Shown here piece after piece: positions 10,166 to 57,002 of a stretch of DNA of 64,000 nucleotides. Source of the stretch: Niebla homalea (taxonomy: Eukaryota; Ascomycota; Lecanoromycetes; Lecanorales; Ramalinaceae). Under the pieces are notes generated by a model that saw only the letters and a list, made by a program, of their open reading frames with translations, was not told where the DNA came from and ran no database searches. Location of the stretch: contig JAHGAU010000013.1 of assembly GCA_019925105.1 (NCBI GenBank), positions 1,302,001 to 1,366,000 on the forward strand, given 5' to 3'. Each line of letters begins with the position of its first letter. The first letter of the stretch is position 1. Made by a program: the position numbers and the translations under genes.

Positions 10166-10205
10166 GTAATTTGACTCCTCTTCTTTTGAGTTCCCGTCCC
10201 ATACT

Positions 10206-10481
10206 TGATGCACGGGGGTATTCCGCGGTTGTCTTGGCAGCCCCTGCATTGGAGACCCTATCGCATAAAGGCCTACCAGACGGCCTTTTGTTAACGGTAT
10301 TACAGGTGTACCGGTGCATAAGGTGCGGTGAATATACGGTTATTAAACGGTCCTTAAGATGGACATAAATACGGTCGTTATTACAATATAATTAAATAAG
10401 CATAATAATAAACTTAATATAAATAATTCAACTTACTTATCTTTCCTTTATACCTTATACTTATTTATATATATTATATTA
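10206..10481 (+). repeat. 5' LTR of Copia A
   Basis: 276 bp, same length as the other three LTRs of this family in the window. The outer about 160 bp next to the NLR exon are unmutated; the inner 110 bp are heavily RIP-changed. Confidence 0.93.
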
Positions 10482-11454
10482 AATTTTAAGCTTAATTAAT
10501 AAAATAATTAATTATAATATATTATTTAAATAATAGTTTTATTTAAGTAATATCTATAATATCTATATAATTACTTAAGATTATAAGATAACTATAGCTT
10601 TAACCTCCGATACCTTAATAAATAATTATAATTATAAAGATATTAGAAAAAATAACTTAATATAATAATATTTACTTTATTAAGCGTAATATATATTTTA
10701 TATTTCCGGTAATAATAATGCTTAAAATAAAAAAACAATATCGTTATTACTTAAAGTATTTACTATAAAAATTATTAAATTACCCTTAAATATTTTCAGG
10801 GAATCCTTTATAAAATTAACTTTATATAAGCTTTTTAAACTTAATAATAATAACTTCCGTAAGTAAAGTTAAGCTATAAAATAATTTTTAAGAAGTTATT
10901 TATTATAGGATATTATAGATAATTTAATTTTATACTTTTAAGTCCCGTTTTAAGTTAAGATTTAAATTATATACATTAACTTTATTACCGGTATACTTAT
11001 AAATAACGTAATAACGACGTAAAGATTATATATCTTAATAAATAAAAACGTTATACCGTTTTAGATTTATTTAACTTAAAATAAGATTTATTTCGTAAAA
11101 AGTAAGGGAAGGCTAATCCTTTTATTAACGAAGATCCTTATTATAAAAGCTTAAAAAAATAACGGAAAAAATAAAGTCGCTATATCTATAAAAAAGGCAA
11201 ATAAGTAAATAAGCTAAATCAATAAAGCCGTTATATTAAACGATATTTACTTAAGCCTTACGATTATAAACTTATTTTAAAAAGTATATAAGTTTAATCT
11301 CGTTATATATCGGCTTAAAAACGATAAGGACGTCTTTAATAATAAGAAGGTTATTTAAAGACTTAAGATAATTAAGATTAATAGAATTAAAAGACAGACT
11401 ATTAATACCGTAGTAATAAAGGTAAATAAAAAGGATATTATTAAATCCCGCCGC

Positions 11455-12915
11455 CTAATAAAATACTATAATTACCAGAAAATAGGCTATATAGTTAAGG
11501 ATTATAATAAAGAAAGCGTAAAAATAAACAGTAAAACCGGTAAAGAAATTAATAAGGATAAAATTAAAAAAACAGAGAAATTTAAAAAATAAATAGTTCG
11601 ATTTAAGTTTAAATAAATTAAAAAGGTTATAGCTAAAGATAATAAGGAATTTAAAAATCAAACTTTATTATTATTAATAAAAAAGAAAGTAATATTAAAA
11701 AGTTAACGTTTATATTTATTAATGACAACGACGATTTTATTATCCTCTTAATAAAAAACGGAATAATTTTAATAAACTTTTAGAAAACTATTAAAATAAT
11801 AAAGATTTATATAATTTAATTCTATATAAGCTTAATAATAATATTATTACGGTAGATTTAAGTAATCCCGGTCTTTATAATAACGATAACGAAATAAAAA
11901 ATATTATTATAATAAATAATATAAATAATAAAGAGAATTATTTATTTAAGAATAATTTATATAATTAAATTATAAAATAAATACGGAAAAAATATGACTT
12001 TTTCTAAAATAATAAAAACCCAGACCCTATAAAATCCGTGAATATTAATAATAATAATTACGTTTTAATAATAATAAGGGGTAACTCCTTTAATAAGATA
12101 AGTTAAAATATACCGTTTAAGGATAAAAAAACCCTTTAAACGATAGACTCCGGCGTTATAAAATATATATATACTTAGAAAAATATATTTCGGAATTTTA
12201 AAGAAAAGACTATAAGGATAATAATAAAAAATAAAGGCTCCTTAAATTTATTTAAATATAATAAAGTAATAATCGAGATAAACGGTTAAAACCATATTAT
12301 TTAAGACGTATTATAGATTCCTTATTTAGGATTTAACCTTTTATTTATTTTAACTTTAGAGGATAAAAATATAAATATTACCTTTAACGGATATAAAATA
12401 AAAATTACGTAAAAAGATTAACTTATTACGGTAAGGTATTAATATAAAAAGCTTTATTTACTTATATATATCCGGAAAAACGCTACGTTAATAATTAATA
12501 AAAAAAACTTAAATCCCGTACCCTATAAATTATAAAGTAAAAAAAATAAGAAAAACGGTAAAGTTAAACGTAATAATAATAAAATTACTTAGGGATATAA
12601 AAAAGGTAATAACGAACTCTTTATGACTTTTTATAACCGTTTAAGTTATCCAGGTATAATTAAGCTATATATTATATATAAAACGGTATTAAGAATACCG
12701 AAAATATCGGCCTTAAAAAATTTTTTCTATAATATATATAAGAATAATAAATTTATAAGAAGTATACGTAAATATTATTATATAAAAGAAATAAAACTTA
12801 AGTTTTATTTCTTCTATAACGTTTAAAACCTTTATAATATTAAGGTATTAATCCCCGGAATAATACCCTTTAAGTATTACTTATCCGTTATTAACGAGGT
12901 TATAGGGTAATTAAG
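11455..12915 (+). pseudogene. Copia A gag/protease/integrase remnant
   Basis: A CCHC zinc knuckle at about 11464-11508 reads YYNYQKIGYIVKDYNK: the three Cys and the His have become Tyr, the expected RIP outcome. The protease motif DSG is at about 12147-12155. A short intact frame at 12623-12826 has the GAG-pre-integrase features RLSYPGI..L and FFYNIYKNN. It is interrupted at 12915 by the Gypsy element C and resumes at 32319. Confidence 0.8.
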
Positions 12916-13248
12916 TGTTAGACTGACTCCGCTGGCGGCACGCCGGCGGGACTAGTAAAGGTAGGTATAAAAAACGTGACGTTACGGTCTGGATACTTGG
13001 GTACCACTTTAATAAGTAAATTAATAATAAGATTAATTCTTAAGGAACTCAGAAAGAATTAGGGTATAACCTTTATTTAAGGTAAAGGTAATAATTACCC
13101 CGCTTTACGTTTATTAAGTTACGGCTTATAAATAACGTATAGTAAGGCCGTTATTAAGGCCCTTTATTAAGGTTTAACGGCTTATCTTAATGCAGTAATA
13201 TAGCGTATTACTATAACGCCAGCGTAAAGGTAATATTAATTATTAATA
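12916..13248 (-). repeat. Gypsy C LTR, left copy (3' LTR)
   Basis: 333 bp. The outer about 100 bp are G+C-rich and not RIP-mutated (TGTTAGACTGACTCCGCTGG...); the inner part is degraded. Confidence 0.9.
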
Positions 13249-13763
13249 ATTATTTCCCTTTTTATACGCTGGTCTTTAGGGCATAAAAAGATATATCCAA
13301 AACGTTAACGTAAAGCCGGTTAAATATAAAACTTATTAAAAACCTATTATTAAACCTAATGGGAAAAGGGTAAAAAGAAAAGAGTCTTTAGGTATATACG
13401 TAAATATAATAGTATTTATTTAATGATAATATGATAAAGATATTTTACATTAATAAAAAGTTAACGTAACTTAAAGACCTCAACAAAAACCTTTTTATAA
13501 AACCCAGTAAGAAAAGGTAAATAAGAAAAAAGTCTCTATAATATTAATTAATAATTACTTAAGGCTTTCTTATTAATTTACCACATTATAATAAAAATAA
13601 ATGCTATTATAAAAACGGCGCGCGATTATAATAAGGCCTTTATTCTGTTTTAAATTTCTTTTTTTTTCTTTTTAATAATTTTAATTACTTTTATAAATAT
13701 AATATATTAAAAGTTTATATAAGTATTTATAAGTTAATACGTATATAACTATATATCCTCGTT

Positions 13764-16700
13764 GAATTAATAGAAAATGATGGCGACGAACAACGGGACC
13801 CCAGAGGTCAGAAACGATGTACACGTGTATAACTTAAGTAATAATAAAGATAATACCTTAAATACGATAAGCGGAAGCGGAATAATAATAAGGGTAAAAG
13901 GGGAGGAAGGGCAAACGGCCCAGGTTAATAAGAACAATAATAAGTTATATAAATAACGTAATAAATACGAGATAAAAAGGCCTTAAATTAAATAAGGAGT
14001 TTATAATTAATAAAATACGTATAAAGGGATACGTATAACGCGTAAAGGTATTATTATAAAAAGTAATAAATAAAGGGCGGAGGGGATAAGGATAATACGC
14101 GGGGACGGATAAGGGGTAAACGGAGGCATAAAAAACCTTATTAAGTATATATAAATTAAGAAAAAATTAAGTAAAAATAAAGAGATATTAAGTAAATAGG
14201 AATAAGCTATAAAAAAAAATAACTATTAAATATATAAAAGAAAAATAAAAAAGGAAAAAGCAATAAGGATATTAAAAGGCTTCCTTATAACTATATAAAA
14301 GGATATTACGTTAAAGACTTAATTAATATTATAAATTAAGTTACGGAGGATAAAAGACTTTTATATAAAAGCGGAAAAAAATTAAAAAAAATTAAAAAAA
14401 TTATATAAAGCTTAAAAAGCGGTAATAAAAGCGCCGGCGGACGGAGGCGAAAAAAAATAAAAAAAATATATATAAAGTAAGGGAACGACGGGGGAAACTT
14501 TAAGGAAAAGAGTAAGGATAAGTTAAATAGTAAGGGCCATAAGGACGGCGCCGGTATTAATAATAAAAAAGGTAAAAGCAAAGGAGAAAACGGCGGTATT
14601 AAGGAAGGTAAAAATAATAACTATATAATTATTAAGTGAAAAAAAAAGGAATATAATAATAAAAATAAACTTATTATAATTAATAAAGGCATTTAAAGTA
14701 ATAAAAAAGTTATTAATAAAATAGATTATTATAGTACGTAAGTTATAAAGTAAGAATATCCTCCTTAATATAATCTTATTAAAGGTAAAGGAAGGGCTAA
14801 AAAAATTAAAGGGATAAACCAATAAAAAAAGATATAAGACGGTAAAGGTATTAAGGTAATCCTTCACTATTACGGTAAACGGGATATATTTAATAAAATT
14901 TACGGGGGAGGAAGGGGAAGTTACTTTAAGGTAAATAAAGAAAGAGAATATGGTCCTTTACTTTGGATTAAAGATTATTAATTATAACCTCCCTATTATA
15001 ATAAAAAGGCTAAACGTTTTTAATTATATAAAGAAATACTTTACGGTTATCTTAAACGTAACGTTAATAAAGATATATAACGATATCCTTAATAAAAAGG
15101 TAATAAAAAGTAAGTTCTTTAAGTTAATAAGACCTTAAAATTAAACAGCGGATATTTATTAATACTTTAAATATTAAGGATATAAATATATTATTATAAA
15201 GTACCTTAATAATATAAAGTATACAATATATATTAAAGGATATAATATATATAAATACGTTAACTTAATAATAAAAAGCTTAATAAAAAACGCGTTAAAA
15301 TATATAGCGTATAATAATAATAATTATTCAATATAAGACTTATAATATATAATAAAAGTAAAGGAAACTTAATATAAAGAGATTAAGATAATAATTAAGG
15401 TTTAACGTTATAACTTATATAAACTTAAATTAATAAAGTAATTCAAAATAATTTTAAAACGTAAACGGAACTTATTAAACGGGGAAAAATAAAACGCGGT
15501 AATTAATAACGTAAAAAAAAGGAAGCTTATAATAATATTAACCCTTAAAGCCGGCCGCTTAACCGGGATTATTATTATAATAAAAAGATTAAAATAAATA
15601 ACATTTAACCTTAAAAAAAGACTATTTATATAAATAAAAGTTAATAAAAAAAACCCAACGAACGTTAATATTTAATATATTTATGCTTTTAAGGGTAATA
15701 TAATATAACGTATATAAGGAAGTAATTAAAGTTATAATACCGATATTTAAATTTAAGGAAATAAAGGATATTAATATTATAATAATATAAAAGCCGTTAT
15801 ATAATCCGTATATTTATTTTTTAATTAACCCGGGAGATGGTTTTTATTTAGCCTTTAAGGGTAATAAGACGATACGGATATATTTCTTTATTAATAAAAG
15901 GTTAAATATAAATAGTTAAAATATTATTTATTACGGAAAAAACCTATATATATTCCGGATTATATAAAAGGGGGATATTAAGGGTATTTTAAATATTTAT
16001 AATATATATAATCCGCTATCGGTTAATAAAAAGGAACCCTTTATAATTCCGCTACTTAAAGATATTATAGCCGTACCCGGTAAATACCTTTTAATAAAGG
16101 ACTTTAATCTTTATTACGTTTAATGGAATAAAAACGGTTATACGATTAATTATATTAAATCTAAAGAATTATTAATAGTTATTATACGATTTAACCTTAC
16201 GTTATTAACGCTAAAAGGGGCTATTATATAAAAAAGCCGTAAACTTAAAATTACAATTAACTTAATATTTAATTTAGAAGGTATTATTAACTTAATTATA
16301 ATATATAAACTTTAAGAGGATTTAAAATACGGTTTAAATTACGTCTTAATATAAATAACCTTAAATTAATTTATTAACGTAATTCCGCCCTTACCGTTTA
16401 AATGAACATAAAAGATAATTAAAGAAGTTAAAATATTAATAAAAGCGGTAAAGGTAATATCTTAATTAACGGAGCGTCCCCGGCTTAATAATAAAGAATA
16501 AATTAACCGTTTTATAAAGCGGGTAATAAAGGCTTTAAATAAAGTAATTAATATTATAATTTTAATAATAAAGCTGTTTTAAAGAGTTAAAACTTATTAA
16601 AATAAAAAGTATATAAAGGCGATTATAAAAATAAAAGCGTTTATAAAATAAGCTATTAAATATAAAAACCGGGAAATACTTTAACGGTTAAAAGAAGCTT

Positions 16701-19543
16701 AAGAAAAAAAGGAAAAAATTATCCGGAAGATTAAATAAATATACTTCCGGGCTATAATATATAATTTAACGGTTTCTTTTTATAATATTTAAAAATTAAT
16801 AAAATACGGTAAGGAATAAAGTAAAAAACTTAAATTTATCCTTAAGTTTTTACCCTTAAAAAGACTAAACGGTATAATAATAAATACCTTTAACGGCAAA
16901 ATTAAGGCTCTTAAAAAAACGTTCTTTCCTTTATTACCGGAAGTTAACTTAATAAATATTAACGGTATAATATATTTTAAATTAATAATAATAAGTAAAA
17001 TAATAACTTAAAAGATAATAATTAAAGCGATTAATAAATTAAAGAAAAATAAGGCCCCCGGATTTAATAATATATTAAATAAATTCTTATTTATAGTAAC
17101 GTTATTATTTAAAGAAGTTTTTATTTATTTATTTTAAGTTTATTTTAATATAAAATATTATTTTTATAAATTTAAGGAGGTTAAAACGATTATCCTTAAG
17201 AAGCCGGTTAAATTAAATTACTTAAAAATAAAATTATATAAACCTATAATATTCTTTTATATATTAAGGAAGACTTTAAAAACGGTAATTATAAAAATCT
17301 TAAGTAACTACGTAAAAAAGTATAAGTTATTCCTTAATTAATAAATAAAAATAAGAAGAAAACGGTTAACGGAAACGGTTCTTAAAGGCTTAATCGATAA
17401 TATATATACGGTATAAAATTATAAAAAGAAATACGTTATAAGTCTTCTTTCCTTAAATATTATAAAGGTATTCGATAAAATAAATTATTAAAGGTTATTA
17501 TATAATTTACGGAAAAAAGGGGTTTTATTTTTCTTTATAAATTAAATAGAAAGTTTTTTAAGTAATTAAGTAACGTTAATTAATTTAAGATAAAAGATAA
17601 ATATAATAAAGCCCGTAATAATAGGGATTCCCCAGAAATTATTTATTTCTTTAATTTTATTCTTATTTTTTAACGGCCTATTTATTAAAAACTTAACGAA
17701 ATTAAAATAGAAGGTTTAAGTAAAAGGCTTTATTAATGATATTTAACTCTTAACTTATAATACGTCTATTTATATAAATTATTTAAAGTTAAAATAGGCT
17801 TATAAAATTTACTTATAATAAATAAAGATATATAAAACTTAGTTCGCCCCGTATAAATATAAACTTATTTATATAATAAAAAGCTTAAAGCTATATAATA
17901 TAATAATTATAATAAACTTAAATAATATAACGGTAAAACCGGAAGCCAGTATTAAGGTATTTAGTTTATAAGTTAATAAGAAACTAGACTAAAAAGATTA
18001 TATAAAAAAGGTTTAGAAGAAAATAATTTTATAAGAAAAAGGTTTTACTTACTTTATAGCATTAACGTAAAGAGTTACCTTATAGAAAATTAAAACCGTT
18101 TATTAAACGGTTATAAAGCTTATAATAACGTACGTAATAATTATTTAATACGTATCCAAAAATATACTTAAATATAAGAAAGAGCCCATCCGGTAATTAA
18201 AAAAGGTTTAAAATTAATACTTAAGAATAATAAATAAAGTATATAAAGTAACTCTTATCCCGGTATTGGAATCCGAGGTCTTTATATTATTAATAGAATT
18301 AACCTTGGATTAAATAATCGCTTAAGTAAGGTTTAAAAGGGGTATAAACTTAATTATATTAATAGGAAATAAACGTATTTATTAAAACTATAAAAAGCCT
18401 TAAATAAAAAAACGTAGAAAAACGGTATTTACCCCTTTTATAGAAGTTAAATTAAAATAAATTAAAAAAGAAATTAACTTAACTTATATTTAAGAAGTTA
18501 ACGTAAAAGTATATAAATTCTTATTTAAAGTGAAAATAACGGAGGAAAAGAAGGCCGTAAGAATAAAGTTAACGGCAATTATTTTATAAATTATAAAGAA
18601 ATAAATAAAGCATTAATATAAATATAAAGAATTAATCCCTTAAGGGTAATATTATTTAACGTTAAATAACGATAAGGTTATTAATAAGTATTTTTAACGT
18701 TACGGGATTATAAGGAAAAGCAATAACGTATTAATAATTTAACTCTGGATAAGTAAGAATAACTTAATTTATTTCCTTTTTATCGTATACGCCGGTAGCC
18801 GAATTAATATTAATTATAAGTATAAATAATAAAAGTAAGATACCGTATATATATTAATTTCTTATTTATTATTTAAGGAGCTTAAACCGGGATTAATTAG
18901 AAGGGTAAAAATTAATAATTATCGTTAAATACTTATTAATAAAAAAAGTATTAAGGCGGCCGTTAAATTCATAATAACTATAGGCTTATTATTATAGTTT
19001 AGTTTAACCAAGGAAATAGAGGAAGTAATTAAAAACCTAATTAAGAAACTTTATTATTAACCCGGGGGTAAAAAGTAGCGGCGGGAAAATTATACTTAAT
19101 AAAGGGTTAAAGGGGCTATAAATACCAGGGCGGTATAAGAAACGATATTATATTGGTTAATAAAGTTATATAAATAAAGTAATAATAATATACGTATCGG
19201 TAAAGATATTTAATAATATAATCGGAATTCTGAAATTTTAATATTAAATAGACCCGTAAAGTAATGGAAAAGCAATAAATTTAAAAGTAACCCTTAAGTA
19301 AATTTAGTTATAATATTATAGGTTTTCTTAAAAAAGGCGTATAAATAAATTCTTACTTTTTAAACAGCCGTAAATACTCTTAGCCCTTAAAACGTAAATA
19401 AAGGCTGGGTAAATACCGGTTTTTATTCTTAACGTTATAGATATCGGGTTTTTTGCGGTTATTAATAAGGCTAAATGGCCGAGTATTAAAGAACGCCGGA
19501 ATTAGCTCAGTTAGATCCGTAATATAAATCAATCAATCAATCA
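13764..19543 (+). mobile_element. LINE i, full-length Tad1-like, RIP-degraded
   Basis: 5,780 bp in Gypsy C with a 13-bp target duplication ATATATCCTCGTT (13751-13763, 19544-19556). The 5' end carries an ORF1 start reading MATNNGTPEVR. The 3' end is a run of AATC repeats rather than poly-A. ORF2 remnants at 17040-17780 show the RT blocks: LKKNKAPGF, TIILKKPVK, SLLSLNIIKVFDK, GIPQK and the active-site region GFINDI (Asp to Asn). These suit the Tad1-like LINEs of ascomycetes. Confidence 0.88.
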
Positions 19544-22500
19544 ATATATCCTCGTTATTTATATTATTATTATAGTAAATAACGTTAGCGTTACGTAAAC
19601 GTTTTATTTACGTTAATAGTCCGTTTATTTCGTTTATTAATATTATATATAAGTTAATTAATCTTAAGTAACGTAATTTACGCCGACGTGTTATTAACGT
19701 CAACGTAAATATAATATTAATAATAAATATAATAATACTTTATTTTATTTACTTTTTATAGGGTAAGTTACGTTATATATATAACCCGTTATTTTACTTA
19801 CGGTGTCGCTGTAAATGATATTTTTTTTATTGCTTTCCCGTAAATATTTTAATACCGTTATACCGCCGTTATTTTAATATATATATAGTTCCCGGATTAA
19901 TTATAATCCCGGGTAATTTAATAAATACGTAAGTATCCTTCGATTAATACGTAGTCTATTAGGGCGTAAGCCCGGTACGTACGGAAACGTAATAAAATCC
20001 TTTAGGATTTTAAAGCCTTCCGGTTAAATATTAGTTAAACGTTAATTATTACTAATTAATCGGAATATACGCTCCGTTAAGTTACCTTAAAAGTTAAAAA
20101 AGAGGTATTAGTCCTTTAAAATAAGAAAAAAACGTTTACCGCCCGTATTAAAACGGCGGAAAAAGAGGTTATTTAACTTAAAAAATAAATAAATAAATTA
20201 TAATATAATAATAAGACGATAATATTAATATTTAATAGCTGGATCGGCTTAATACGGGGGGTCTAGGCCCTTTATAAAAGTCAACTTTATCGGGAAGTTA
20301 CTCCTTATTTTCCGACCTTATATTTAAAATAGGGAAATAGGATTTTAAGCTTATAATATCCGGTAACTTAAGAAATAAAAAAAAGGAAAGAAATATAAAC
20401 TTCGGCTTATTTAAAGAAAAGGAAAAGGAGGTTATACCCTCCTTAATAGCGCCGTTAAAGGGGTCGGCCTTAACTTTTAAAAGTAATACCTTAAAATTAA
20501 GTTAAAGAGTTTTTCCGGCGAATAATACTAAGGAAAGGCCTTTAATTAAGGCGGAGAAAAAAGCGGAAAAGAAAAGGAGAAAAAAAATAAGGAGGGTATA
20601 ATGCTTTTATATTTATTTTTAATTTTATTAATTTATTCATAAAAAAAAAGCCTATATTAACGCGGAACTATAAATTATTCTTTTATTTTTATATATTAAT
20701 ATTATTGAAATTTAACGTTAAACGTTAAAATTAATAACGTTAAACGTTAAACGCTTATAATTTATATATTATTAAAAAGCAATAAGGCAAACGATATTAT
20801 TAAAGTTACCGGTACGTTAACGTAAACCCAGTAAATATATTTATTAACCTTTTATTACCCTTAATAACTTTATTTCTTTAACTTTATTTACTTAATAACG
20901 CGTTAAGCGTTTATAATTTAACGCTTATACTTCTTCGTTTTTTCCGGTATTATTACGGTTATTATTAAAGCCATTTTTATTAATTATAATATTATAATAA
21001 AAATAATCGTTTCCGCAACGTTAACTTATTTATACGCGTAATACCCGCAGTAAATAAAGTTATTAATTAAAGCTTAAACTTTAATAATCTTACGGAAGGA
21101 TAACGTATAAGGGTTAAATAGTTATAATATTAATTACATATATAGTTATTAACCATATATATAACCTCCGTTATCGCGGCGTTATAATTTTATTTACGTT
21201 TTTTCTTATTTTATATTATTTCGTTATATTATTCTTATAGTTCTTAAGAATATTTTAAGTCCGTTTCCGGTACTTATTAATTATATTTAAGGTTTTAATT
21301 AACTTAATATTAAACGCCTTTTTTACTTTTAACTTTATTAATAATTTCTTTAATTATTTATTCCTTTTTATTATTAATTAATTTAAGTACTTATATTATA
21401 ACCTCCGCCATTTAATCGTTAACGTAAATATAATAAGACTTTAAAAGAGAAATATAAATAATAAGGTAAATTTAATAAATAATAAAAAGGAATAAGCGGT
21501 ACGCTTACATTTTAATTTTATTATTAATTCTAAAAAGTTTTATAAATCGGGGCGTAAGTTTTTTATTTAATTATTTTAATTTAAGGTTTTTAATATTTAA
21601 TATTATTAAATTACCGACGTTATATAACTTTAACTTATATTTCTTATTATATGTTTTTTAAGTCAATTTAATAATACGGCGTTATCGGTTTATTAATATT
21701 AATCGTATTTTATATAATATTTTAACTTTATCTTTTACTATAGGTATCTCTTTTTTTATAAGCTTATTTTTAAGTTTAAAATAAATATCTGGATTATAGC
21801 TATATATCGTTATAAAAAAGTTATAGCTTAAAGTTAAATATTCCGAGTTTATATAAATAAATTCGGTTAAGGGAAGTAACCCTATTTAATTTATTTATTC
21901 GGAGCTGGTAAAAGTCCTTAAATATTATTTAAGGCCTTAATTTTAACGTTTTATTTAATTATCCATTTATAAATAAAAAGCGGTATTTAATTTACGCTTT
22001 ATCTTTACGTAATAATATACTGAACCTTAAAATTTATTAATAAATAAAGACCCTTAATTAATTACGATTTTAACCAATATATTATAACGTAATATAATTT
22101 CTTTAAAGAAAAGATCCATTAATATAACGGTATCGATTTATTTTATAACGGGGAGGTATTTATATATCTTTATATACTTATTTACGATTATTGAAATTGA
22201 ATTATAAACGTTACTTTTAACCTTATTTACGGGTAAACCAATAATAAAATCTATATTAAGTTTTTTCCAAGATATAGTTAATTAAGGGAGTAAAGTAAAT
22301 TTACCGTAAAGGCGGTAACGCGGTACCTTAATCCTTTAATAAGTATTATACGTTTTAATATAATTATTAATTTAAGCTTTTAAACCGTTCTAGTGATATT
22401 TACGGGTTAAAAGCTTATACGTTTTTTCGGCTTTAAAGTAGCCCGTTAATAAGTTATTATAATACTTATTAATCAGCTTTTCTTTAACTGCTTTATCGCG

Positions 22501-24516: not shown

Positions 24517-24662
24517 TGTTATGTGCAGCATGCATGCATGGGAGCATTGATAGGTGTAGGACACCCTTTGTACGTAGAGGACAGACATCCTTATGATGCT
24601 CCCATCCTTCAGGTAGAATCATCATTCATACATTATCACACTTTTTGGTCCATACACCAACA
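24517..24662. mobile_element. 146-bp solo LTR, not RIP-mutated
   Basis: A G+C-richer island in the middle of the Gypsy C pol region. It begins TGTTATGTGC and ends CACCAACA, and is flanked by the 5-bp duplication CCTTC (24512-24516, 24663-24667). It contains a perfect 10-bp inverted repeat, ATGGGAGCAT and ATGCTCCCAT. The TG..CA ends and 5-bp duplication indicate a solo LTR of an element otherwise absent here; a small non-autonomous DNA element is less likely. Confidence 0.75.
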
Positions 24663-41100: not shown

Positions 41101-42000
41101 TTAATAAGTAAGAACTTATAAAGTTTAATTTATACCGTATAAATATAAGCTTATTTATATAATTAAAAACTTAAAATTATATGATATAATAATTATAGTA
41201 AACTTAAATAAAATTATAATAAAGCCGGATATTAATATTAAAGTCCTTAACCTTTAAGTAAATAAAAAGCTTAATTAAAAAGATTATATAAGAAAAATTT
41301 AAAAAAAGATAACTTTATAAAAAAAAGGCCTTATTTATCTCGCTATATCGGTATAGGGAGTTACGTTATAGAAAACTCGGACCGTTTATTAAGCCGTAAT
41401 AAAACCAGTTATAATATACGTTATAATTATTTAATATATATTTAAAAGTACTCCGGGATATAAAAAGGAGCCTATTTAAATATTATAGAAAGTCTAGAAC
41501 CGGTATTTAAGAGTAATTAACGGTACTTATAAAGTAATTTTTATCCCGGTATTAAAGTCTAAGGTTTTTATACCATTAATTAAAGTTTTATTAAATTAAA
41601 TAATCGCTTAAATAAAGTTAAAGAAATATATATATTTAATTATAATAATAAGAAACGGGCGGATCCGTTAAAATCTTAATAAGCTTTAAGTTAAAAAAAG
41701 TAAAATAAAGATATTTATCCTTTTTTTTATTAAGATAAAGTAAGAATAAGCTAAAAAGGAAATTAACCTTACCGGTATCTTAAAGGTTAATTTAAACGCG
41801 TATAAACTTCCGTTAAGCGTAAAAAAAAATTAAAATTAAGGAGATTTAAAGAGTAAAAACTATAGTAATTATTTTATAAGTTACGATAAAATAAATTAAG
41901 CGTTAACGGAAATATAAGGACTTTATGTTTTAAGGTTATTATTACTTAGCTTTTAATAATAAAAGAATTATTAATAAGTATTTCCGTTATTATAATATTA

Positions 42001-45000
42001 TTGATTGATTAATTAATTTATACTACGGATCTAGCTAAGCTAATTCCGGCGTTCTTTAATACTCGGTTATTTGGCCTTATTAATAACCGTAAAAAACCCG
42101 ATATCCATAACGTTAGGAATAAAAACCGGTATTTACCCAACCTTTACTTACGTTTTAAGGGCTAAGAATATTTACGGCCATTTAAAGAATAAGAATTTAT
42201 TTATATATTTTTTTTAAGAAAACTTATAATATTACGATAAAATCTACTTAAAAGTTACCCTTAAACTTATTGTTTCTCCGTTACTTTACGGGTCTATTTA
42301 ATATTAAAATTTTAAAATTCCGATTATATTATTAAATATTTTTACCGATATATATATTATTATTATCTTATTTATACGACTTTACCGACCGATATAATAT
42401 CGCCTTTTATATTACCCCGGTATTTATAGCCTTTTTAACCCCTTATTAAGTATAGTTTTTCCGCCGTTGCTTTTTACCCCCGGGTTAACGGCGAGATTTC
42501 TTAATTAAGTCCTTAATTACTTTTTTTATTTCCTTAATTAAGTTAAACTATAATAATAAGCCTATAATTATTATGAATTTAACGGTTACCTTAATACCCT
42601 TTTTATTAATAAGTAATTAATGATAATCGTTAATCCTTGTTTTTTTAATTAATCCCGGTTTAAGTTCCTTAAATAATAAATAAAAGATTAATATATATAC
42701 GGTATCTTACTTTTATTATTTATATTTATAACTAACGTTAATCCGGTTATTAACGTATACGATAAAAAGGAAGTAAATTAAACCGTTTTTATTTATCCGG
42801 AGTTAAATTATTAGTATATTATTACCTTTCCTTATAATTTTATAATACCGGAGATACTTATTAATAACCTTATTATTATCCAGTATTAAGTATTATCGTT
42901 TTTAAGGGATTAATTTTTTATATTTGCGTTAACGTTTTATTTACTTTTTTATAATCTATAAAGTAATTGTTATTAACTTTATTTTTACGGCTTTTTTTTC
43001 CTCCGTTATTTTTACTTTAAATAAAAGTTTATATACTCTTATATTAACTTCTTAAACGTAAGTTAAATTAATTTCTTTTTTAATTTACTTTAATTTAACT
43101 TCCGTAAAAAAAATAAATATTTTTTTTCTATGCTTTTTTATTTAAGGCCTTTTATAATTTTAATGAATACGTTTATTTCCTATTAATATAATTAAGTTCG
43201 TATCTTTTTTAAGTTTTATTTAAACGATTATTTAATTTAAGGTTAACTTTATTAATAATATAAAGATTTTAGATTCCAGTATTAAAACAGGAATCGCTTT
43301 ATATACTTTACTTATTACTCTTAAGTATCGGTTTTAAACCTTTTATAATTATCGGACGGGCTTTTTCTTATATTTAAGCGTACCTTTAAAAGCGTACCAG
43401 ATAATTATTATATACGTTATTACAGGCTTTTTAACCGTTTAATAAACGGTTTTAACCTTTATAAAATAGCTTTTTACGTTAATACTATAAGGTAAATAAA
43501 GTTTTTCTTTTATAAAATTATTTTCTTTTAGATTTTTCTTATATAATCTTTTTAATTTAATTTCTTATTAATATATAGGTTAAGTATTTTAATATTAACT
43601 TCCGGTTTTATCGTTATATTATTTAAGTTTATTATAATTATTATATTATATAGCTTTAAGCTTTTTATTATATAAATAAGTTTATACTTATATAAAATAA
43701 ATTAAACTTTATATATCTTTATTTATTATAAGTAAACTTTATAACCTTATTTTAGCTTTAAATAATTTATATAAGTGGACGTATTATAAGCTAAAAAATA
43801 AATATTATTAATAAAACTTTTTATTTAAACCTTTTATTTTAACTTTATTAAGTTTTTAATAAGTAAGCCGTTAAAGAATAAAAATAAAACTAAGGAAATA
43901 AATAATTTTTAAAAAATCCTTATTATTATAAACTTTATCGTACTTATTTTTTATTTTAGGTTAATTAATATTATTTAATTATTTAAGAAACTTTTTATTT
44001 AATTCATAAAGAAAAATAAAACCCTTTTCTTCCGTAAATTATATAATAACCTTTAATAATTTACTTTATTAAATGCCTTTATAATATTTAAGGAAAGAAG
44101 ACTTATAACGTACTTTTTTTTATAGTTTTATATTATATATACGTTATTAATTAAGTTTTTAAGAGTTATTTCCGTTAACCGTCTTTTTTTTACTTTTATT
44201 TATTAATTAAAGAATAACTTATATTTTTCTATATAATTACTTAAGATCTTCGTAATTACCGTTTTTAAAGCCTTTTTTAACGTATAAAGGAGTATTATAG
44301 GTTTATACGATTTTACCTTTAAGTAATTTAACTTAACCGGCTTTTTAAAAATAATCGTTTTAATTTCTTTAAATTTATAAGGGTAATATCTTATATTAAA
44401 GTAAGCTTAAAATAAATAAATAAAGACTTTTCCGAATAATAACGTTATTATAAATAAGAACTTATTTAATATACCGTTGGGTCCGGGGGCCTTATTTTTC
44501 TTTAATTTATTAATCGTTTTAATTATTATCTTTTAAGTTATTATTTTATTTATTATTATTAATTTAAGATATACCGTACCGTTAATTTTTATTAAGTTAA
44601 TTTCCGGTAACGGAGGAAAAAACGTCCCTTTAAGAGCCTTAATTTTACCGTCAAAAGTATTCATTATTATACCGTTTAATCTTTTTAAAGGTAAAAACTT
44701 AAGAATAAATTTAAGTTTTTTACTTTATTCTTTATAATATTTTATTAACTTTTAAATATTATAAAGGGAAACCGTTAAGTTATATATTACAGCCCGGAAA
44801 TACGTTTATTTAACCTTCTAGATAATTCTTTCCTTTTTTTCTTAAGCTTTTTTTAATTATTAAAACGTCTCCCGGTTTTTATATTTAATAATTTATTTTA
44901 TAAACGCTTTTATTTTTATAATTATTTTTATATATTCTTTCTTTTAATAAGTTTTAACTCTTTAAAACGGCTTTATTATTAAAATTATAGCGTTAATTAT

Positions 45001-47768
45001 TTTATTTAAAGCCTTTATTATCCGCTTTATAAAACGGTTAATTTATTCTTTACTATTAAGCCGGGGGAGCTCCGTTAATCAGGATATTACCTTTACCGCC
45101 TTTATAAATACTTTAATTTCTTTAACCGTCTTTTATATTTATTTAAACGGTAAAAACGGAGTTATATTAACGGATTAATTTAAGGTCGTTTATATCGGGA
45201 TATAATCTGAACCGTATTTTAAGTCCTTTCGGGGTTTATATATTATAATTAAGTTAATAATACCTTTTAAGTTAAATATTAAATTAATTATAATTTTAAA
45301 TTTACGGCTTTTTTATATAATAGCTTCTTTTAGTATTAATAATATAAAATTAAACCGTATAATAATTATTAATAACTCCTTAAATTCAGTATAATTAATT
45401 ATATAACCGTTTTTATTTTATTAAATATAATAAAGATTAAAGTCCCTTATTAAGAAATATTTATTAAATACGGTTATAATATCCTTAAATAATAAGATCA
45501 TAAAAAATTTTTTCTTATTAACCGGTAGCGGATTATATATATTATAAATATTTAAGTTACCCTTAATATCCCCTTTTTATATAATCCGGAGTATATATAG
45601 GTTCCCTTTATAATAAATAACGTTTTAATTATCTATATTTAGCCTTATATTAATAAAAAAATATATCCGCGTTATTTTATTACCCTTAAAAACTAAATAG
45701 AAACTATCTCCTAGGTTAATTAAAAAATAAGTATATAAATTATATAATAACTTTTATATCGCTATAATATCAATATCTTTTATTTCCTTAAATTTAAATA
45801 TTAATATTACGGCTTTAATTACTTCCTTACGTATATTATATTATATTACCCTTAAAAGCGTAAATATATTAAATATTGACGTCCGTTAAATTCTTTTTAT
45901 TAACTTTTATTTATATAAATAGTCTTTTTTTAAGGTTAAACGTTATCTATTTTAATCTTTTTATTATAATAATAATCCCGGTTAAATAACCGGCTTTAAA
46001 GGTTAATATTATTATAAGTTTCTTTTTTTTTATATTATTAATTATTATGCTTTATTTTTCCCCGTTTAATAAGTTCCGTTTATATTTTAAAATTATTTTT
46101 AATTATTTTACCGGTTTAAGTTTATATAAGTTATAACGTTAAATTTTAATTATTATTTTAATTTCTTTACGTTAAGTTTCCTTTGTTTTTATTATATATT
46201 ATAAGTCTTATATTAAATAATTATTATTATTAGATATTACGTATTTTAACGTATTCTTTATTAAGCTTTTTATTATTAAGTTAACGTATTTATACGTATT
46301 ATACCCTTCGGTATATACCGTATACTTTATATTATTAAAGTACTTTATAATAATATACCCGTACTTTTAATATTTAAAGTATTAATAAATATCCGTTATT
46401 TAATTTTAAGGTTTCATTAATTTAAAGGATTTACCCTTTATTACCCCTTTATTAAGGATATTGTTATATATCCTTATTAACGTTATACTTAGGATAATTA
46501 TAAAGTATCTTTTTATATAATTAAAAACGTTTAGCCTTTTTATTATAAAAAAGAAATTATAATTAATAATCTTAAGTTTAAAATAAAGGATTATATTCTT
46601 TTTTTTATCCGTTTTAAAATAGTTTCTTTTTCCTCCCCCGTAAACTTTATTAAATATATCTTATTTACCGCGATAATAAAGGATTACCTTAATATTTTTA
46701 CTATTTTATATCTTTTTTTATCGGTTTATCCCTTTAATTTTTTTAATCCCTTTTTCGCCTTTAATAAGGTTATATTAAAAAGGATATTTTTACTTTATAA
46801 TTTATATATTATAATAATTTATTTTATTAATAATTCTCCCGTAATTTTAAACGTTTTTATTTATTATAACGGGTTTATTTTTACCGTTATATGTTTCTTT
46901 TCTTCGCCCGATAATTATATAATTATTATTTTCACTTTTCTTTATGTTATTATTTTTTCCCCCGCCTTTATTTCCTTTACCGTTAACGCTAATATTATTT
47001 TTACGGTTTTTATTATTTAATTTATTCCCGCTTTTTTCTTTAAAGCCTCCTTTATTATTTTTTTATTTTATACGTATTTTTTTTATCTTTTTTTATTTCC
47101 GTCCGCCAACGCTTTTATTACCGCCTTTTAAGTTCCGCGTAGCCTCTTTAACTCCCTTAAACCTCTCCCCGTATTTACGTAAAAATCTTTTATTCTCCGT
47201 AGCCCGATTTATAGTATTAACCAGGTCTTTAACGTAATATCCTTCTATATAGTTATAAAAAGGCCTTTTAATATCCTTATTATTTCCTTTTTTTTTACTT
47301 TTTTTCTGCGTATTTAATAATTACCTTTTTTTATAACCTATTCTTATTTACTTAATATTTCTTTATCTTTATTTAATTCTTTCTTAATTCATATATACTT
47401 AATAAAACCTTTTACGCCTCCGTTTACCCCTTATCCGTCCTTACGTACCGTCTTCGTCCCCTCCGCCCTTTATTTATTACCCTTTATAATAATACCTTTA
47501 CGCGTTATACGCGTCCCTTTACGCGTATCTTATTAATTATAAGCTTTTTATTTAATTTAAGGCCTTATTATCTCGTATTTATCGCGTTATTTATATAACT
47601 TATTACCGTTCCTATTAACTTAAGCCGTTTACCCTTTTTCCCCTTTTACTTTTATTATTATTCCGCTTCCGCTTATCGTATTTAAGGTATTATCCTTATT
47701 ATTACTTAAGCTATATACGCGTATATCGTTTCTAACCTCTGGGGTCCCGTTGTTCGTCGCCATCATTC
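42001..47768 (-). mobile_element. LINE iv, full-length Tad1-like, RIP-degraded
   Basis: About 5.77 kb on the minus strand. The TTGA tail is at 42001; the 5' end with the conserved ORF1 start (reverse of GGCGACGAACAACGGGACCC) is near 47735-47763. The flanks share TTCCGTYATTAYRA (41982-41995 and 47774-47787), an RIP-altered target duplication matching LINE iii. A short frame at 46944-47237 is antisense-type noise within it. Confidence 0.82.
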
Positions 47769-47790
47769 CTTACTTCCGTCATTACGAGAA

Positions 47791-49387
47791 ATATTATTAT
47801 AGTTTATATTAATCTATTTATTTATTAATAAGTTATAAATTCTTTAAACCGATTTAGATAAATTAAGGTTATTAATAAAAAAATTATAAATTTATTATTA
47901 AATAATATTTAAGAGTTTATAAATAAACCGAAGGACCGTAAGCTTATTAACTTTAAATAGGTATTTAAGAAAAAATTCCTTACTTTAAGTTTTATTAATA
48001 AATATAAAATAAAACTTATTATAAAAAGTTTTATTTAAAAGTAAAATATTAACTATAAAAAAACCTTTTTACTTATTTTAAAATATAAATTATTCCGCTT
48101 ACTTTTAATACTTATAATTATCTATAGACTTTAACTATAATTCTTAAACGTTATTACCGTATATTTAAATAATAATTTAAATAAAAAAATCTATATAAAT
48201 ATTTTTAAAGGTATTCCGATAACTTAATAAAATATTAGTAAATATTTCCGTTTACTTAAAGATTTTTATAAGCTTAAATAATTAAAAAAGATTTAAATTA
48301 AAAAATTTTAATTATAACTTTATAAATTTAATTTTATTTTTATTTAAGCTGATTTATACGTTTTTATTAAGAAGTTTAATTAAAAAACGTATTTAATAAT
48401 CCTTTATATTAATAACATTATTATTATTATTAAAAGCTTAAAGGTTTATAAATAAATAAAAAATTATTTAATTTTAATATTTAAGTTTATTAAAAAAGAT
48501 CTATTAAAAATAATCCTTAAAATATAAGTCTTTTAAAATAACGATATTATAGCTATAAATTAAATAAATTACATTATAAATATCTTTAAAAAGTATTATA
48601 TAATAAGTTATAATAATATTAATATTTTAATAAACGGATATAAAAATATATAAATAATTTAACTTAATAAATAATAAATAAATTAATATATTTATTAATA
48701 ATTTTTTAATAAATTTATATTCCTTTAAGTTATTATTTATTTAAATTTAACTTTTTTAATCTTAAAATTAAATTAATTTTATAATAACCCCGTTATTTAA
48801 TATTAGAATTATTTAATATAAATACTTAAATATTTACAGAATATATTAAATTTAAATTTATACTTCTGACGTAACGGCGGATTACTTAAATATTTCGTAA
48901 ATACTACGTTTATTAACGATAAAAATAAAGCTTTATAATATTAAATACCGGTATAATATACGTATAATATATTCAGAAATAACGTACTGTCGTTACCTTT
49001 ACCGTAAAAGTTAAATATATAACTTTTTCTGAAGGGTATAAAGTAAATATTTAATTTATAAAATAAATTAATAAAACCGGATTCTTTAAAGGTTACGGAT
49101 TTATTGTTTTATTTAATAATAATAATAATAATATCTCCTTTATTAAGAATCCGGAGAATTATTTACGGATTAAATATATTAACGTTTAATATTACTTTAT
49201 TTAAAGAAAAATATAAAAAAATTTTATCTTAATAAAGTATATTAATATTAAGGATTAACTTATAAATATTATAATAAAGCTTTTATTAAAATAATCCTTT
49301 AAAATAAATTAATTAAAACTCGGATTATATTTAATAAATTAATAGCGGTATTATTATTATAGATTTATCGTAACTTTAAAGAGGGAG
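47791..49387 (+). pseudogene. Copia A reverse transcriptase/RNase H remnant
   Basis: Collinear with 53630-55243 of element B. The RT catalytic box reads LYINNI near 48405-48422, where Copia elements have YxDD; both Asp codons have become Asn through G-to-A change. Many stops are present. Confidence 0.8.
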
Positions 49388-49663
49388 TAATATATGGGGG
49401 TATTCCGCGGTTATCTTAATAACCCTTATATTAAAGACCCTATCGCATAAAGGCCTATTAAACGGCCTTTTATTAACGGTATTATAGGTACACCGGTATA
49501 TAAGGTACGGTAAGTATACGGTTATCAAACGGTCCTTGGGATGGATACAAATACGGTCGTTATCACAGTGTAATTAGACAAGCATAGTGGTAGACTCAAT
49601 ACAAGTGATTCGGCTTACTCACCCTTCCCCTGCACCCTGCACCCATTTGCGCATATTGCATCA
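49388..49663 (+). repeat. 3' LTR of Copia A
   Basis: 276 bp. It is preceded by a polypurine tract AAAGAGGGAG (49378-49387). The inner half is RIP-mutated (starts TAATATAT instead of TGATGCAC), the outer half is intact, and it ends TGCATCA followed by ATACT. Confidence 0.93.
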
Positions 49664-49711
49664 ATACTTCCTCAAGTCACATGACCAGCTTTCACCCTAA
49701 TGCGTCTCCCT
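49664..49711 (+). other. remnant of NLR intron 1 between the two Copia elements
   Basis: 48 bp of unique DNA: second ATACT copy, 38 bp of original intron, first TCCCT copy. It includes CCCTAATGCG, a plausible branch-point sequence (CTAAT). The outer halves of the facing LTRs are likewise unmutated, giving a G+C-richer island from about 49520 to 49860. Confidence 0.85.
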
Positions 49712-49987
49712 TGATGCACGGGGGTATTCCGCGGTTGTCTTGGCAGCCCCTGCATTGGAGACCCTGTCGCATAAAGGCCTACCAGACGGCCTTTTGTTAA
49801 CGGTATTACAGGTACACCGGTGTATAAGGTACGGTAAATATACGGTTATTAAACGGCCCTTAAGATGGACATAAATACGGTCGTTATTATGGTATAATTA
49901 AATAAGTATAATGGTAGATTTAATATAAATATTTTAACTTATTTACCCTTCCCTTATATCCTATACTTATTTACGTATATTATATTA
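49712..49987 (+). repeat. 5' LTR of Copia B
   Basis: 276 bp; outer (left) part unmutated, inner part ending TATTATATTA is RIP-changed from TATTGCATCA-type sequence. Confidence 0.93.
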
Positions 49988-52900
49988 AATTATAAACCCG
50001 GTTAATAAGATAATTAATTATAATATATTATTTAAATAATAATCTTATTTAAGTAATATCTATAATATTTATATAATTATTTAAGACCGTAAGATAATTA
50101 TAACTTTAACCTCCGATATCCTAATAAGTAATTATAATTATAAGGATATTAAAGAAAATAACTTAACGTAATAAAACTTATTTTATTAAGCGTAATATAT
50201 ACTTTATATTTCCGGTAATAATAATATTTAAGATGAAAGGATAACGTTATTATCGTTTAAGGTATTTACCATAAAAATTATTGGATTACCCCTAAATATT
50301 TTTAAGGAATCCTTTTTAAAGCCGGCTTTATATAAACTTCTTAAACTCGATAATAATAACTTCCGTAAGTAAAGTCAGGTTATAAAACGTTTTTTAAGAA
50401 GTTATTTATTTCAGGGTATCGTAAATAACTTAACCTTATACCTTTAAGTCTTTTCTTAAGTTAAGATTTAAATTATATACGCTAACTTTACTGCTGGTAT
50501 ACTTATAAATAACGTAATAACAACGTAAAGATCATATATTTTAATAAATAAGGACGTAACTCCGTTTTAGATTTACTTCACGTAAAGTAAAATCTATTTC
50601 GTGAAAAGTAAAAGAAAGTTAATCCTTTTATTAATAAAAATCCTTATTATAAAAGCTTAAAAGAATAACAACGTAAATAAGCTCGCCGTATCCATAAAAA
50701 AAGTAAATAAATAAGTAAATTAAATTAATAAGGTTATTATATTAAACGATATTTATCTAGGCTTCATAATTATAAACTTATTTTAAGAAGTATATAAATT
50801 CAGTTTTATTATATACCGGCTTAAGAACAATAAAGATATATTTAGCAATAAGAAAGTTATTTAAAGACTTAAAGTAATTAAGATTAATACGGCTGAAAGA
50901 CAGATTATTAATACCGTAATAGTAAAAGTAAATAAAGAAGATAATATTAAACCCCGCCGCGTAATAAAATACTATAATTGCCAGAAAATAGGTTATATAA
51001 TTAAGGACTATAATAAAGAAAACATAAAAGTAAGCGGTAAAGATAGTAAAAAAATTAATAAGAATAAAATTAAGAAAGTAAAAAAACCCGAAAAATAAGT
51101 AGCTCGATTTAAACTTAAACGAATTAAAAAGGCTATAATTAAAGATAACGAGGAATCTAAAGAATTGAGTTTTATCGCCGTTAATAAGAAAGAATATAAT
51201 ATTAAGGAGTTAACGTTTATATTTATTAATAATAACGATAACCTCGTTATTTTTTTAATAAAAAACGGACTGACCTTAATAAGCCTTTAAAAAACTATTA
51301 AAGTAATAAGGATTTATATAATTTAATTCTATATAAGCTTAATAATAATACCGCCACGATAAATTTAAGTAATCCCGGTCTTTATAATAATAATAATGAA
51401 ATGAAAGATATTACTATAATAAACAATATAAGTAATAAAGAAACCTATTTATTTAAGAGTAATTTATATAATTAAATAATAAAATAAATACGGAAAAAAT
51501 ACGACTTTTTCCAAAATAATAAAAGCTTAAACCCTATAAAATCCGTAAATACCGGCAATAATAACTATACTTTAATAATAATAAAGGGTGGCTCCCCTAA
51601 TAAAATAAGTTAAAATATACCGTCCAAGGATAAAAAAACCCCCTAGACGATAAACTCCGGTATTACGAAATATATATATACTCGGAGAGGTATATTTTAG
51701 AATTTTAAAGAAAAGACTATAAGGGTAACGGTAGGGGGTAAGGGCTCCTTAGACTTACCTAAACGTAGTAACGTAATAATCGAGATGAACGGTTAAAACC
51801 GTATTATTTAAAATATATTATAGGTTCCTTATTTAGGATTTAACCTTTTATCCATTTCAGCCTTAGAGGATAAAGGTATAAGTATTACCTTCGGCGGACG
51901 TAAAATAAGGATTATATAAGGAGATCGATTTATTATAATAGGGTATTAATATAAAAAGCTTTATTTACTCGTATATATCCGGAAAAACGCTACGTTAATA
52001 ATTAATAAAAAAGACTTAAATCCTATATCCTATAAATTATAAAGTAAAAAAAATAAAAAAAACGGTAAAGTTAAACGTAATAGTAATAAAATTACTTAAA
52101 GACGTAAAAAAAATAACGACGAACTTTTTATAATTCTTTATAATTATTTAGGTTATTTAAGTATAGCCAGGCTATATATTATATATAAAATAATATTAAA
52201 AATACCAAAGATATTGGCCTTAAAGGACTTTTTTTATAATATATATAAGAATAATAAACTTATAAAAAGTATACGTAAATATTATTATATAAAAAAAATA
52301 AAGCTTAAGTCTTATTTCTTTTACGACGTTTAAAGCCCTTATAGTATTAAGGTACTAATCCCCGGAATAATATTTTTTAAGTATTACCTATCCGTTATTA
52401 ATAAGGTTACGGGGTGGTCAAGCCTTACCCTATTAATAACGAAAGTTAAAATAATTAATCGAGTTTTATTTATTATTAATATACTCGATTATAAGGAAGG
52501 TAATATTACCGTTAAGTATATTTATACCGATAATATAAAGGAATTTTAAGCTTTTAAAGCGGTTATTAAAGAACGTAATATTACTATAAAATATATTATA
52601 TATTATATACCTAAATAAAACGGCGTGGTTAAACGGTTTAACCGAATAATAAAGACGATAATCCGGTATATAATATATTATACTAAGTTATTAAATAGCT
52701 TTTAAGCCTTTATAATTATATATATTAATTAATTAAAATAAAAGCTTCTATTTATAAAGGGAGTAAGCCCTTTTAAGAAATAAATAAAGGTAAAATTTCT
52801 TATTAAAAACGAAAAAACGTTTAAGATATTATATAAAGTAAATATACTTAAAGAAACGAGACGATTAAAATTGGATAAAATTATTATTAATAATATTTAT

Positions 52901-55243
52901 TTAAAAATTATATTAAGCTTATAATTATATATTTATATACCCTATAAAAAGAATATAGAAATCGTTATAAATTTAAAGGTCTTTAATAAAAAAATAATAA
53001 CGTATTTATTATTATAGTTCGTTATTAAAGATATATTATTGGCTCTAGAGTTAATAACCCTTACCGATAATAACGTAACTTATTATAAGGGCGAATATAT
53101 ATTAAATAAGTTTAAAGGACCTAATGAAAATAAGCTTATACTGGCTTATACTTACCCGGTTCCTTAAAATAAAGAAGAAAATCGTAATATAAATCCTATG
53201 GATCTTAACCTTCCTTAGGTTGGCGATAAGGTTTTTAACTAAATAAAGTAAAATAGGAGGGAAATATTATTAAAAATCTATAAGGTAATAAACGGAACGT
53301 TTACTTAGAAAAAGAATTTAGGAAAGTTTATTAAAGACCTTAAAAACGTTAAAAATCCTATAAATCGTAAAAATTATAATAATAACGGGACTCCTAACTT
53401 ATTTCTATTAAAGGGAGTTAATATCTTTTCCCATTTAAAGATACTTATGATTTTATCCCGGTTTATTAATAAACGGGTAAGATTTTACTAATACCGGGAT
53501 ATATTCCGGAAGATAGAATAAATATAAATAATAATATTAACGATAAGCTTAAGATTAATTGCTTTTATTAAGGTTATTATTATTACGATCCTTATATATT
53601 TAATATTAATTTTAATAATATTATTCTTATTATTATAGCTTATATTAATTTATTTATTTATTAATAAACTATAAATTCTTTAAACCGATTTAAATAAATT
53701 AAGGCTATTAATACAGAAATTATAAATTTATTATTAAATAAAACCTAAAAGTTTATAAATAAACTAAAGGATTATAAGTTTATTAACTTTAAATAAATAT
53801 TTAAGAAAAAGTTCTTTACTTTAAGCTTTATTAATAAATATAAGGTAAGGCTTATTATAAGGAACTTTACTTAAAAATAAAATATTAACTATAAAGAAAC
53901 CTTCTTACTTACTTTAAGGTATAAGTTATTCCGTTTACTTCTGGTACTTACGGTTATCTATAGATTTTAATTATGGCTTTTAAACGTTATTATTATATAC
54001 TTAAACGGTAATTTAGATAAAGAGATCTATATAAGTATTCTTAAGGGTATTCCGATAACTTAGTAAAATACCGGTAAATACCTCCGCTTACTTAAAAACC
54101 TTTATAAGCTTAAATAATTAAAAAAGATTTAAGTTAAGAAATTTCGATTATAACTTTATAAATTTAATTTTATTTTTATTTAAGTTAATCCATACGTATT
54201 TATTAAGAGGTTTAATAAAGAGATATATTTAATAACCCTTTATATTAATAATATTATTATTATTATTAAAAGCTCGAAAATCTATAAATAAATAAAAAAT
54301 TATTTAACTTCAGTATTTAAGCTTATTAAAAAAAGCTTATTAAAGACAATCCTCGGGATATAAATATCTTAAAATAATAATATTATTATTATAAATTAAA
54401 TAAGTTACGTTATTAACGTCCTTAAAAAGTACCGTATAATAAACTATAATAATATTAATACCCCGATAAACGGATATAAAAGTATATAAATAACCCGACT
54501 TAATAAATAATGAATAAATTAATACGCTTATTAATAGTTTCTTAATAAACTTATATTCCTTTAAGTTATTATTTATTTAAATTTAGCTTTTTTTTTTAAT
54601 CTTAAAATTAAGTTAATTTTATAATAACCTTATTATTCAATATTAAAACTATTTAATACGGATACTTAAATACTTAAAAAGCATATTAGATTTAAGCTTA
54701 TACTTCTAATATAATAATAGATTATTTAAATACTTTATAAATATTACGTTTATTAACAATAAAAATAATAGGAAATCGTTATATAACTTTATAATATTAA
54801 ATACCGGTATAATATATATATAGTATACTCGGAAATAACGTATCGTTATTATTTTTACCGTAAAAGCCGAATATATAGTTCTTTTTAAAGGGTATAAGGT
54901 AAGTATTTAATCTATAAGGTAAATTAATAAAACCGGATTCTCTGAAGATTACGGGCTTATCGTTCTATTTAATAATAATAACGGTAATATCTTTCTTATT
55001 AAGAACCTGGAGAATTATTCGCGGATTAAATATATTAACGTTTAATACCATTTTATTCGGAAAAAGGTATAAGAAGGCCTTATTTTAATAAAGTATATTA
55101 ACATTAAAAATTAACTTATAAATATTATAATAAAGTCTTTATTAAAATAATCTTTTAAAATAAATCGATTAAAGTTCGGATTATATTTAATAAATTAATA
55201 ACGGTATTACCGTCGTGGATTTATCGCAGCTTTAAAAAGGGAG

Positions 55244-55519
55244 TAATATATAGGGGTATTCCGCGGTTATCTTAATAGCCCCTGCATTAAAGACTTTATC
55301 GCATAAAGGCCTACCAGACGGCCTTTTATTAACGGTATTACAGGTGTACCGGTGCATAAGGTGCGGTGAGTATACGGTTATCAAACGGCCCTTGGGATGG
55401 ACACAAATACGGTCGTTGTCACGGTGTAATTAGACAAGCATAGTGGTAGACTCAATATAAGTGTTTCGGCTTACTCACCCTTCCCCTGCACCCTGCACCC
55501 ATTTGCGCATATTGCATCA
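55244..55519 (+). repeat. 3' LTR of Copia B
   Basis: 276 bp; starts TAATATATAGGGG (mutated from TGATGCACGGGGG) and becomes mutation-free towards the NLR exon, ending TGCATCA. It ends 11 bp before exon 2. Confidence 0.93.
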
Positions 55520-55530
55520 TCCCTCTCTAG

Positions 55531-56944: not shown

Positions 56945-57002
56945 CTTCCAATGGGTTTACCTGCAAATCCAGCAGTTACTTGGGCTTTCTTACGCAAAAG
57001 AT
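56945..57002 (+). CDS. NLR exon 4, part before the inserted element
   Basis: One base completes the codon from exon 3, then FQWVYLQIQQLLGLSYAKD. This is the standard end of the NACHT module (FxWVxLQI). It is cut after GAT by the 417-bp insertion; read-through stops at TAG near 57060. Confidence 0.85.

Follow-up and report, generated by a model that had tools for sequence, protein, structure and literature searches.

In a 64,000-nucleotide stretch of the Niebla homalea genome (C13:1302001-1366000, hereafter the window), the first intron of a gene for a NOD-like receptor (NLR) of the NACHT_N-NACHT-ankyrin type is split by two long terminal repeat (LTR) elements of one Copia family, designated A and B. 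The best-scoring named relatives of the Rad4 protein of this DNA belong to lichen-forming fungi (Alectoria, Letharia, Psora, Stereocaulon, Xylographa), and the top-scoring hit, which is not one of these, is 64% identical; the host is probably a lichen-forming Lecanoromycete. The initial annotation of this DNA had proposed that one Copia family inserted twice, independently, into a single 89-bp intron, and this proposal is borne out by the separate target-site duplications (TSDs), the pairing of the LTRs and the restoration of the intron. It is highly probable, in our view, that the account as a whole is correct, viz. that the intron was split by the two Copia insertions and grew by nesting, that the inserted DNA underwent repeat-induced point mutation (RIP), that a miniature inverted-repeat transposable element (MITE) entered the gene, and that a full-length product is no longer made. 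The insertion anatomy, the duplications, the nesting, the RIP pattern and the stop codon can be read directly from the DNA. If the proposed course of events is correct, then the single-copy NLR gene would first have taken A and B independently into its 89-bp first intron, A would later have taken up a further LTR element (C) as well as other, stacked repeats, and RIP would have mutated the inserted DNA to within about 90 bp of each Copia edge, with the consequence that the splice signals and exons were kept intact. The MITE would have cut the coding sequence before or after these steps, and the moved branch site, the 45 kb of AT-rich and probably silenced DNA and the MITE would together have left a gene without a full-length product.

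If A, B and one copy of each TSD are removed, then the remaining pieces (40+43+6 bp) form an 89-bp GT..AG intron in which the branch A of CTAAT lies 17 nt from the intron end, and the earlier subtraction is thus reproduced exactly. The two 5-bp duplications reported earlier are likewise present and exact: ATACT occurs at 10201-10205 and 49664-49668 on the two sides of A, and TCCCT occurs directly before 49712 and again directly after 55519 on the two sides of B. Element A lies between the donor and the branch site and B between the branch site and the acceptor, and a distance of 5,830 nt now separates the branch site CTAAT from the acceptor. The assignment of these elements to Copia is right in view of the matches in B to RVT_2 (E 9.8e-28, 97.8 bits, cut-off 31.6) and, located before it, to Pol_BBD (E 3e-9), while an integrase was unmatched in the Pfam search of B; A and B also resemble Ty1/Copia elements in their TG..CA LTRs and 5-bp duplications. 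The LTRs of A (A5 and A3) differ by 65 transitions and those of B (B5 and B3) by 55, with 0 transversions in 276 bp in either pair, and because transversions are absent across all 552 compared sites, both insertions look young. One column of the LTR alignment is diagnostic, with A in both LTRs of element A and T in both LTRs of element B, and thus each LTR fits its own partner.

The enlargement of the intron to 45.4 kb had been ascribed to the two Copia insertions. Both of them are present; however, Copia DNA accounts for only about 10.9 kb (~5.1 + 5.8) of the intron, and 34.3 kb, or three quarters of it, consists of other elements nested in A. When A is aligned to B, it breaks at 12908/32316 and at 32843/47792, and its own sequence of ~5.1 kb is found in three pieces, at roughly 10206-12910, 32314-32843 and 47792-49663. 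Element C has LTRs at 12916-13238 and 31980-32313 (60 transitions, 1 transversion and 11 gap columns between them) and the TSD TTAAG at 12911-12915 and 32314-32318. At the second break A also lacks 680 bp, which correspond to B 52948-53627. The E-type repeats at 41999-47767 (minus strand) and 32847-38190 (plus strand) were unmatched in Pfam, and an attempt to classify the E repeats together with the stretch 19547-25398 gave a single sub-threshold endonuclease match (E 0.042). In plants and animals, introns expanded by transposable elements and genes killed by them are familiar, and growth takes place there via nested insertions as well. In contrast, the present case concerns a fungus, the other introns of this gene (introns 2 and 3) are of 50 and 72 bp, and RIP has acted in addition. 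The positions of all of these features are given in Table 1.

Table 1. Positions in the window of the NLR gene, the pieces of its original first intron and the inserted elements
Feature	Positions	Strand	Remarks
NLR exon 1	9692..10165	+	Open reading frame from ATG 9692; 474 nt, 158 aa, phase 0; first part of NACHT_N
Original intron, 5' part	10166..10205	+	40 bp, donor GTAATT, ends ATACT
Copia element A with nested DNA	10206..49663	+	39,458 bp; from TSD, LTR pair and alignment to B
LTR element C, nested in A	12916..32313	+	19.4 kb; itself holds E-type repeats
Stack of further repeats in A	32844..47791	.	14.9 kb; E-type, 5.3-5.8 kb, unclassified
Original intron, middle part	49664..49711	+	Duplicated ATACT and 43 bp, with the branch site (CTAAT, 49697)
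Copia element B	49712..55519	+	5,808 bp; LTRs 49712-49987 / 55244-55519
Original intron, 3' part	55520..55530	+	Duplicated TCCCT plus CTCTAG
NLR exon 2	55531..56170	+	Interval from NACHT_N to the nucleotide-binding domain, plus start of that domain
NLR exon 3	56221..56872	+	NACHT / NPHP3_N; Pfam NPHP3_N E 8.7e-28
NLR exon 4, part before MITE	56945..57005	+	
MITE in coding sequence	57006..57416	.	411 bp, 31-bp terminal inverted repeats, TA duplication
Remaining NLR frame	57417..60088	+	Winged helix, ankyrin repeats; open, but severed from exons 1-3

The borders first given for the split, with exon 1 stopping at 10165 and exon 2 resuming in phase at 55531, are exact. Exon 1 matches Pfam NACHT_N over profile positions 25-113 of 220 (E 1.1e-4; 22.7 bits, short of the cut-off of 30), and exon 2 matches the start of NPHP3_N (E 4.7e-4, also below cut-off); when the exon 2 piece was searched alone in Pfam, NACHT_N was not matched. 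Due to this, the link between the two exons is drawn from homologues. Of the 186 homologues found, 120 were listed, and an alignment of the joined exons, which had been suggested earlier as a way to see whether the two halves belong to different genes, covers the 10165/55531 join in all 120, with 101 of them free of gaps within 12 residues of it; a Peltula protein is 37% identical across 99% of the searched region. On this evidence, exon 1 and exon 2 are halves of one gene. The P-loop GLPGAGKT is encoded across intron 2, and in the frame after the MITE Ank_2 is matched with E 1.3e-63 and GPIID_WHD below cut-off. NACHT_N, a NACHT domain with its P-loop and ankyrin repeats are thus found in one gene, with NPHP3_N and the ankyrin repeats above the Pfam cut-off, and the order (NACHT_N, NPHP3_N/NACHT, WHD-like, ankyrin) is that of the fungal NWD/NACHT NLRs with ankyrin repeats (NACHT_N, PF17100), although the NACHT_N and WHD-like parts are below cut-off here. 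Unlike those NLRs, the present gene has a 45-kb intron and a stop codon supplied by a MITE.

The possibility that two gene halves were joined across repeats by misassembly had to be weighed, as the same contig ends in a near-perfect palindrome of 45.9 kb (C13:1351413-1397213 versus 1443298-1397608, 99.3% identical; window 49413-64000 and beyond), which points to a probable fault nearby, and the mirror arm terminates within the 3' LTR of A. Between the arms there are 75 mismatches and 201 gap openings, and 159 of these openings are of one base. Of the openings, 63 fall within 4 kb of the contig end, 84 within 12 kb of the AT-rich centre and 54 in the intervening 30 kb; the terminal 2 kb of the contig account for 33 of the 75 mismatches and 45 of the 201 gap openings. 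The centre is a 6.4-kb low-complexity AT tract of 15% GC, and the exons of the mirror arm match in several broken pieces. The palindrome is probably an assembly fold-back, the other reading of it being a recent true inverted duplication; the notion that the contig end bears a genuine second copy of the locus was rejected in view of the similarity of the arms, the mostly one-base gaps and the broken mirror exons. Only the right-hand portion of the window is affected by the palindrome, which does not account for the intron. In a search of the genome (50.6 Mb, 52 contigs), a second close copy of exon 1 was absent, and exons 2-3 had close copies only at the locus and in the mirror arm, all other matches being at most 36% identical. 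As these exons have no other close partner, and as matching 5-bp duplications flank both A and B, a canonical 89-bp intron is restored, the diagnostic column pairs A5 with A3 and B5 with B3, and homologues run across the join, a misjoin of two NLR genes was rejected, and misassembly is very improbable.

The decay of the DNA inserted into this gene is explained by RIP. This process is marked in repeats by C-to-T transitions, raised TA/AT and lowered CA+TG, and the inserted repeats fit this pattern. The RIP composite index is +1.17 for A and +1.07 for B, and it is -1.43 for exon 1, -0.71 for exon 2, -0.61 for exon 3, -0.07 for the 55-bp piece of exon 4 before the MITE and -0.57 for exon 4 after it, the exon borders used for these values differing by up to 9 bp from the final ones. 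Where the LTRs of A and B face outward (10206-10297 and 55428-55519), the outermost 92 bp are without a RIP-type difference from the partner LTR, a comparison that is blind to changes common to both LTRs. The outermost 46 bp of 18 other 3' LTRs have a GC content of 0.54-0.59, and the same LTR positions, where they face inward in A5 and B5, have 0.15 and 0.24. RIP thus appears to stop ~90 bp short of those Copia edges that face unique DNA, and such a margin would explain the survival of the donor, the branch site, the acceptor and the exons. Our literature search found no paper on the behaviour of RIP at repeat edges. RIP-free margins can be tested in general, both for how near to unique DNA RIP acts and for whether genes beside insertions survive in this way.

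The coding sequence itself is broken by the MITE. It is short, has inverted repeats and a TA duplication and is multicopy (at least 104 genome matches among 40 scored candidates, many of them single ends), as is typical of TA-duplicating MITEs. An in-frame stop at 57060 inside it, at codon 628 of roughly 1,500, closes the full-length NLR reading frame; three GT dinucleotides lie between the start of exon 4 and this stop, and none resembles a consensus donor. The MITE site is covered by the alignments in 119 of the 120 listed homologues. The locus is most likely a recently inactivated NLR, and the idea that the intron might be a tolerated safe site is not supported, as the gene is truncated by the MITE and the branch site lies 5.8 kb from the acceptor. 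There are, however, points which weigh against this account: the exons have no stops apart from that in the MITE, which fits youth of the insertions, yet could also reflect selection; and a candidate branch motif, CTTAC, is present at 55470 in the 3' LTR of B, 57 nt before the acceptor. With respect to the first of these points, since the insertions look young, the open exons are no proof of selection.

If the CTTAC motif were used, or if splicing took place stepwise, then the 45.4-kb intron could still be a working one, and a NACHT_N-NACHT protein of 627 aa ending in the MITE would be made. Donor and acceptor are both present, exons 1-3 are free of the RIP signature, and CTTAC is a minor branch motif in Fusarium according to PMC5677156. 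However, the same study gives a span of only 42-529 nt for the introns of 226 Fusarium core genes, and in a study of twin introns in Hypoxylaceae (PMC9024468) a short distance between branch site and acceptor tends to persist. A five-base motif also arises easily by chance within 60 bp, and the original branch site is far removed from the acceptor. In fungi, DNA that has been hit by RIP is as a rule heterochromatic. A working giant intron is therefore improbable. An even bolder combination, in which a gene-seeking Copia family with RIP-free edges of ~90 bp also supplied a branch site from its LTR, and the NLR would still be spliced across the 45-kb pile, is slightly less probable again; if true, the spliced intron would probably be of quite exceptional length among fungal nuclear introns. 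A fungal intron of comparable size grown by transposable elements was not found in the literature searched. The recently inactivated NLR offers a clean record of the loss of such a gene through insertions while its exons remain readable, and it should warn annotators that one fungal gene may be spread over 45 kb.

The initial annotation had also raised target preference as a reason for the double insertion. We regard it as a tentative possibility, somewhat short of an even chance, that the Copia integrase targets such sites (intron, promoter-near or NLR DNA) and that the double insertion is not due to chance. Searches gave 154-159 candidate LTRs each, of which the best-scoring 40 were scored, a selection that favours unmutated ends beside unique DNA; by eye, 23 of the 5' LTRs could be paired with a 3' LTR, and the flanks of 16 complete copies were examined. 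All 16 have exact 5-bp duplications if, where the LTR end is repeated, the LTR is taken to start with the first copy (10 of 16 if with the second), and they have flanks with GC 0.39-0.54 on both sides. The 3' flanks, which number 18 after A itself and its mirror copy are left out of 20 and of which 12 belong to the 16 elements, all have GC 0.41-0.53 over 300 bp. Four of the 10 flank reading frames that were searched (22 were seen) have a Pfam match, viz. ATG14, UvrD-helicase and HCO3_cotransp above cut-off and Isochorismatase below it, and all four point away from the element with the first Met 58-282 bp off. If ~80 copies, a number assumed from the 154-159 LTRs, were spread evenly over the 50.6 Mb, then only ~0.01 pairs within 89 bp would be expected, and two further copies (C43:31210 and C43:64035) have NLR matches at 1.2 and 2.6 kb, measured from start to start. 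However, six of the 10 searched frames are without a Pfam match, five of the 11 long frames in 3' flanks point towards the element, the double insertion was chosen for being striking, and both NLR-near copies are on a single contig. For the family, a preference for GC-balanced, gene-type DNA is likely, whereas no preference for introns or NLRs emerges; the placement result is a lead, because each search used the 40 candidates with the highest scores. We infer that the family may land in open, gene-near chromatin, and its placement in GC-balanced DNA is a testable general point. The Tf1 element of fission yeast, which is of the Gypsy type, integrates near promoters. The gene-near sites are alike in the two cases, but the present element is a Copia and its preference is only suggested. 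Targeting of tRNA genes was rejected, as none is present in the 20 3' flanks.

The family differs from Ty1/Copia in that its coding frames here are broken by RIP, that gene-type DNA flanks all 16 of the examined copies and that the first bases of the 5' LTR are tandemly repeated in six of them (L004, L010, L011, L018, C38:158k and C1:2600k); the latter copies possibly form a subfamily. The 3' flank of another copy, L008 (C33:88158), is an open frame running up to the junction, which we take to resemble a polyketide synthase, and this copy may interrupt a gene. Insertion into another NLR at C43:31 kb was considered and rejected, as another LTR piece, in inverted orientation, forms the far side and the empty site is unreadable. 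Upstream of the NLR gene, the window holds at 7786-9521 a further element mutated by RIP, the inverted ends of which match at 84% across 129 bp; it lies 170 bp before the NLR start codon and contains about fourteen 15-bp tandem units at 9075-9286.

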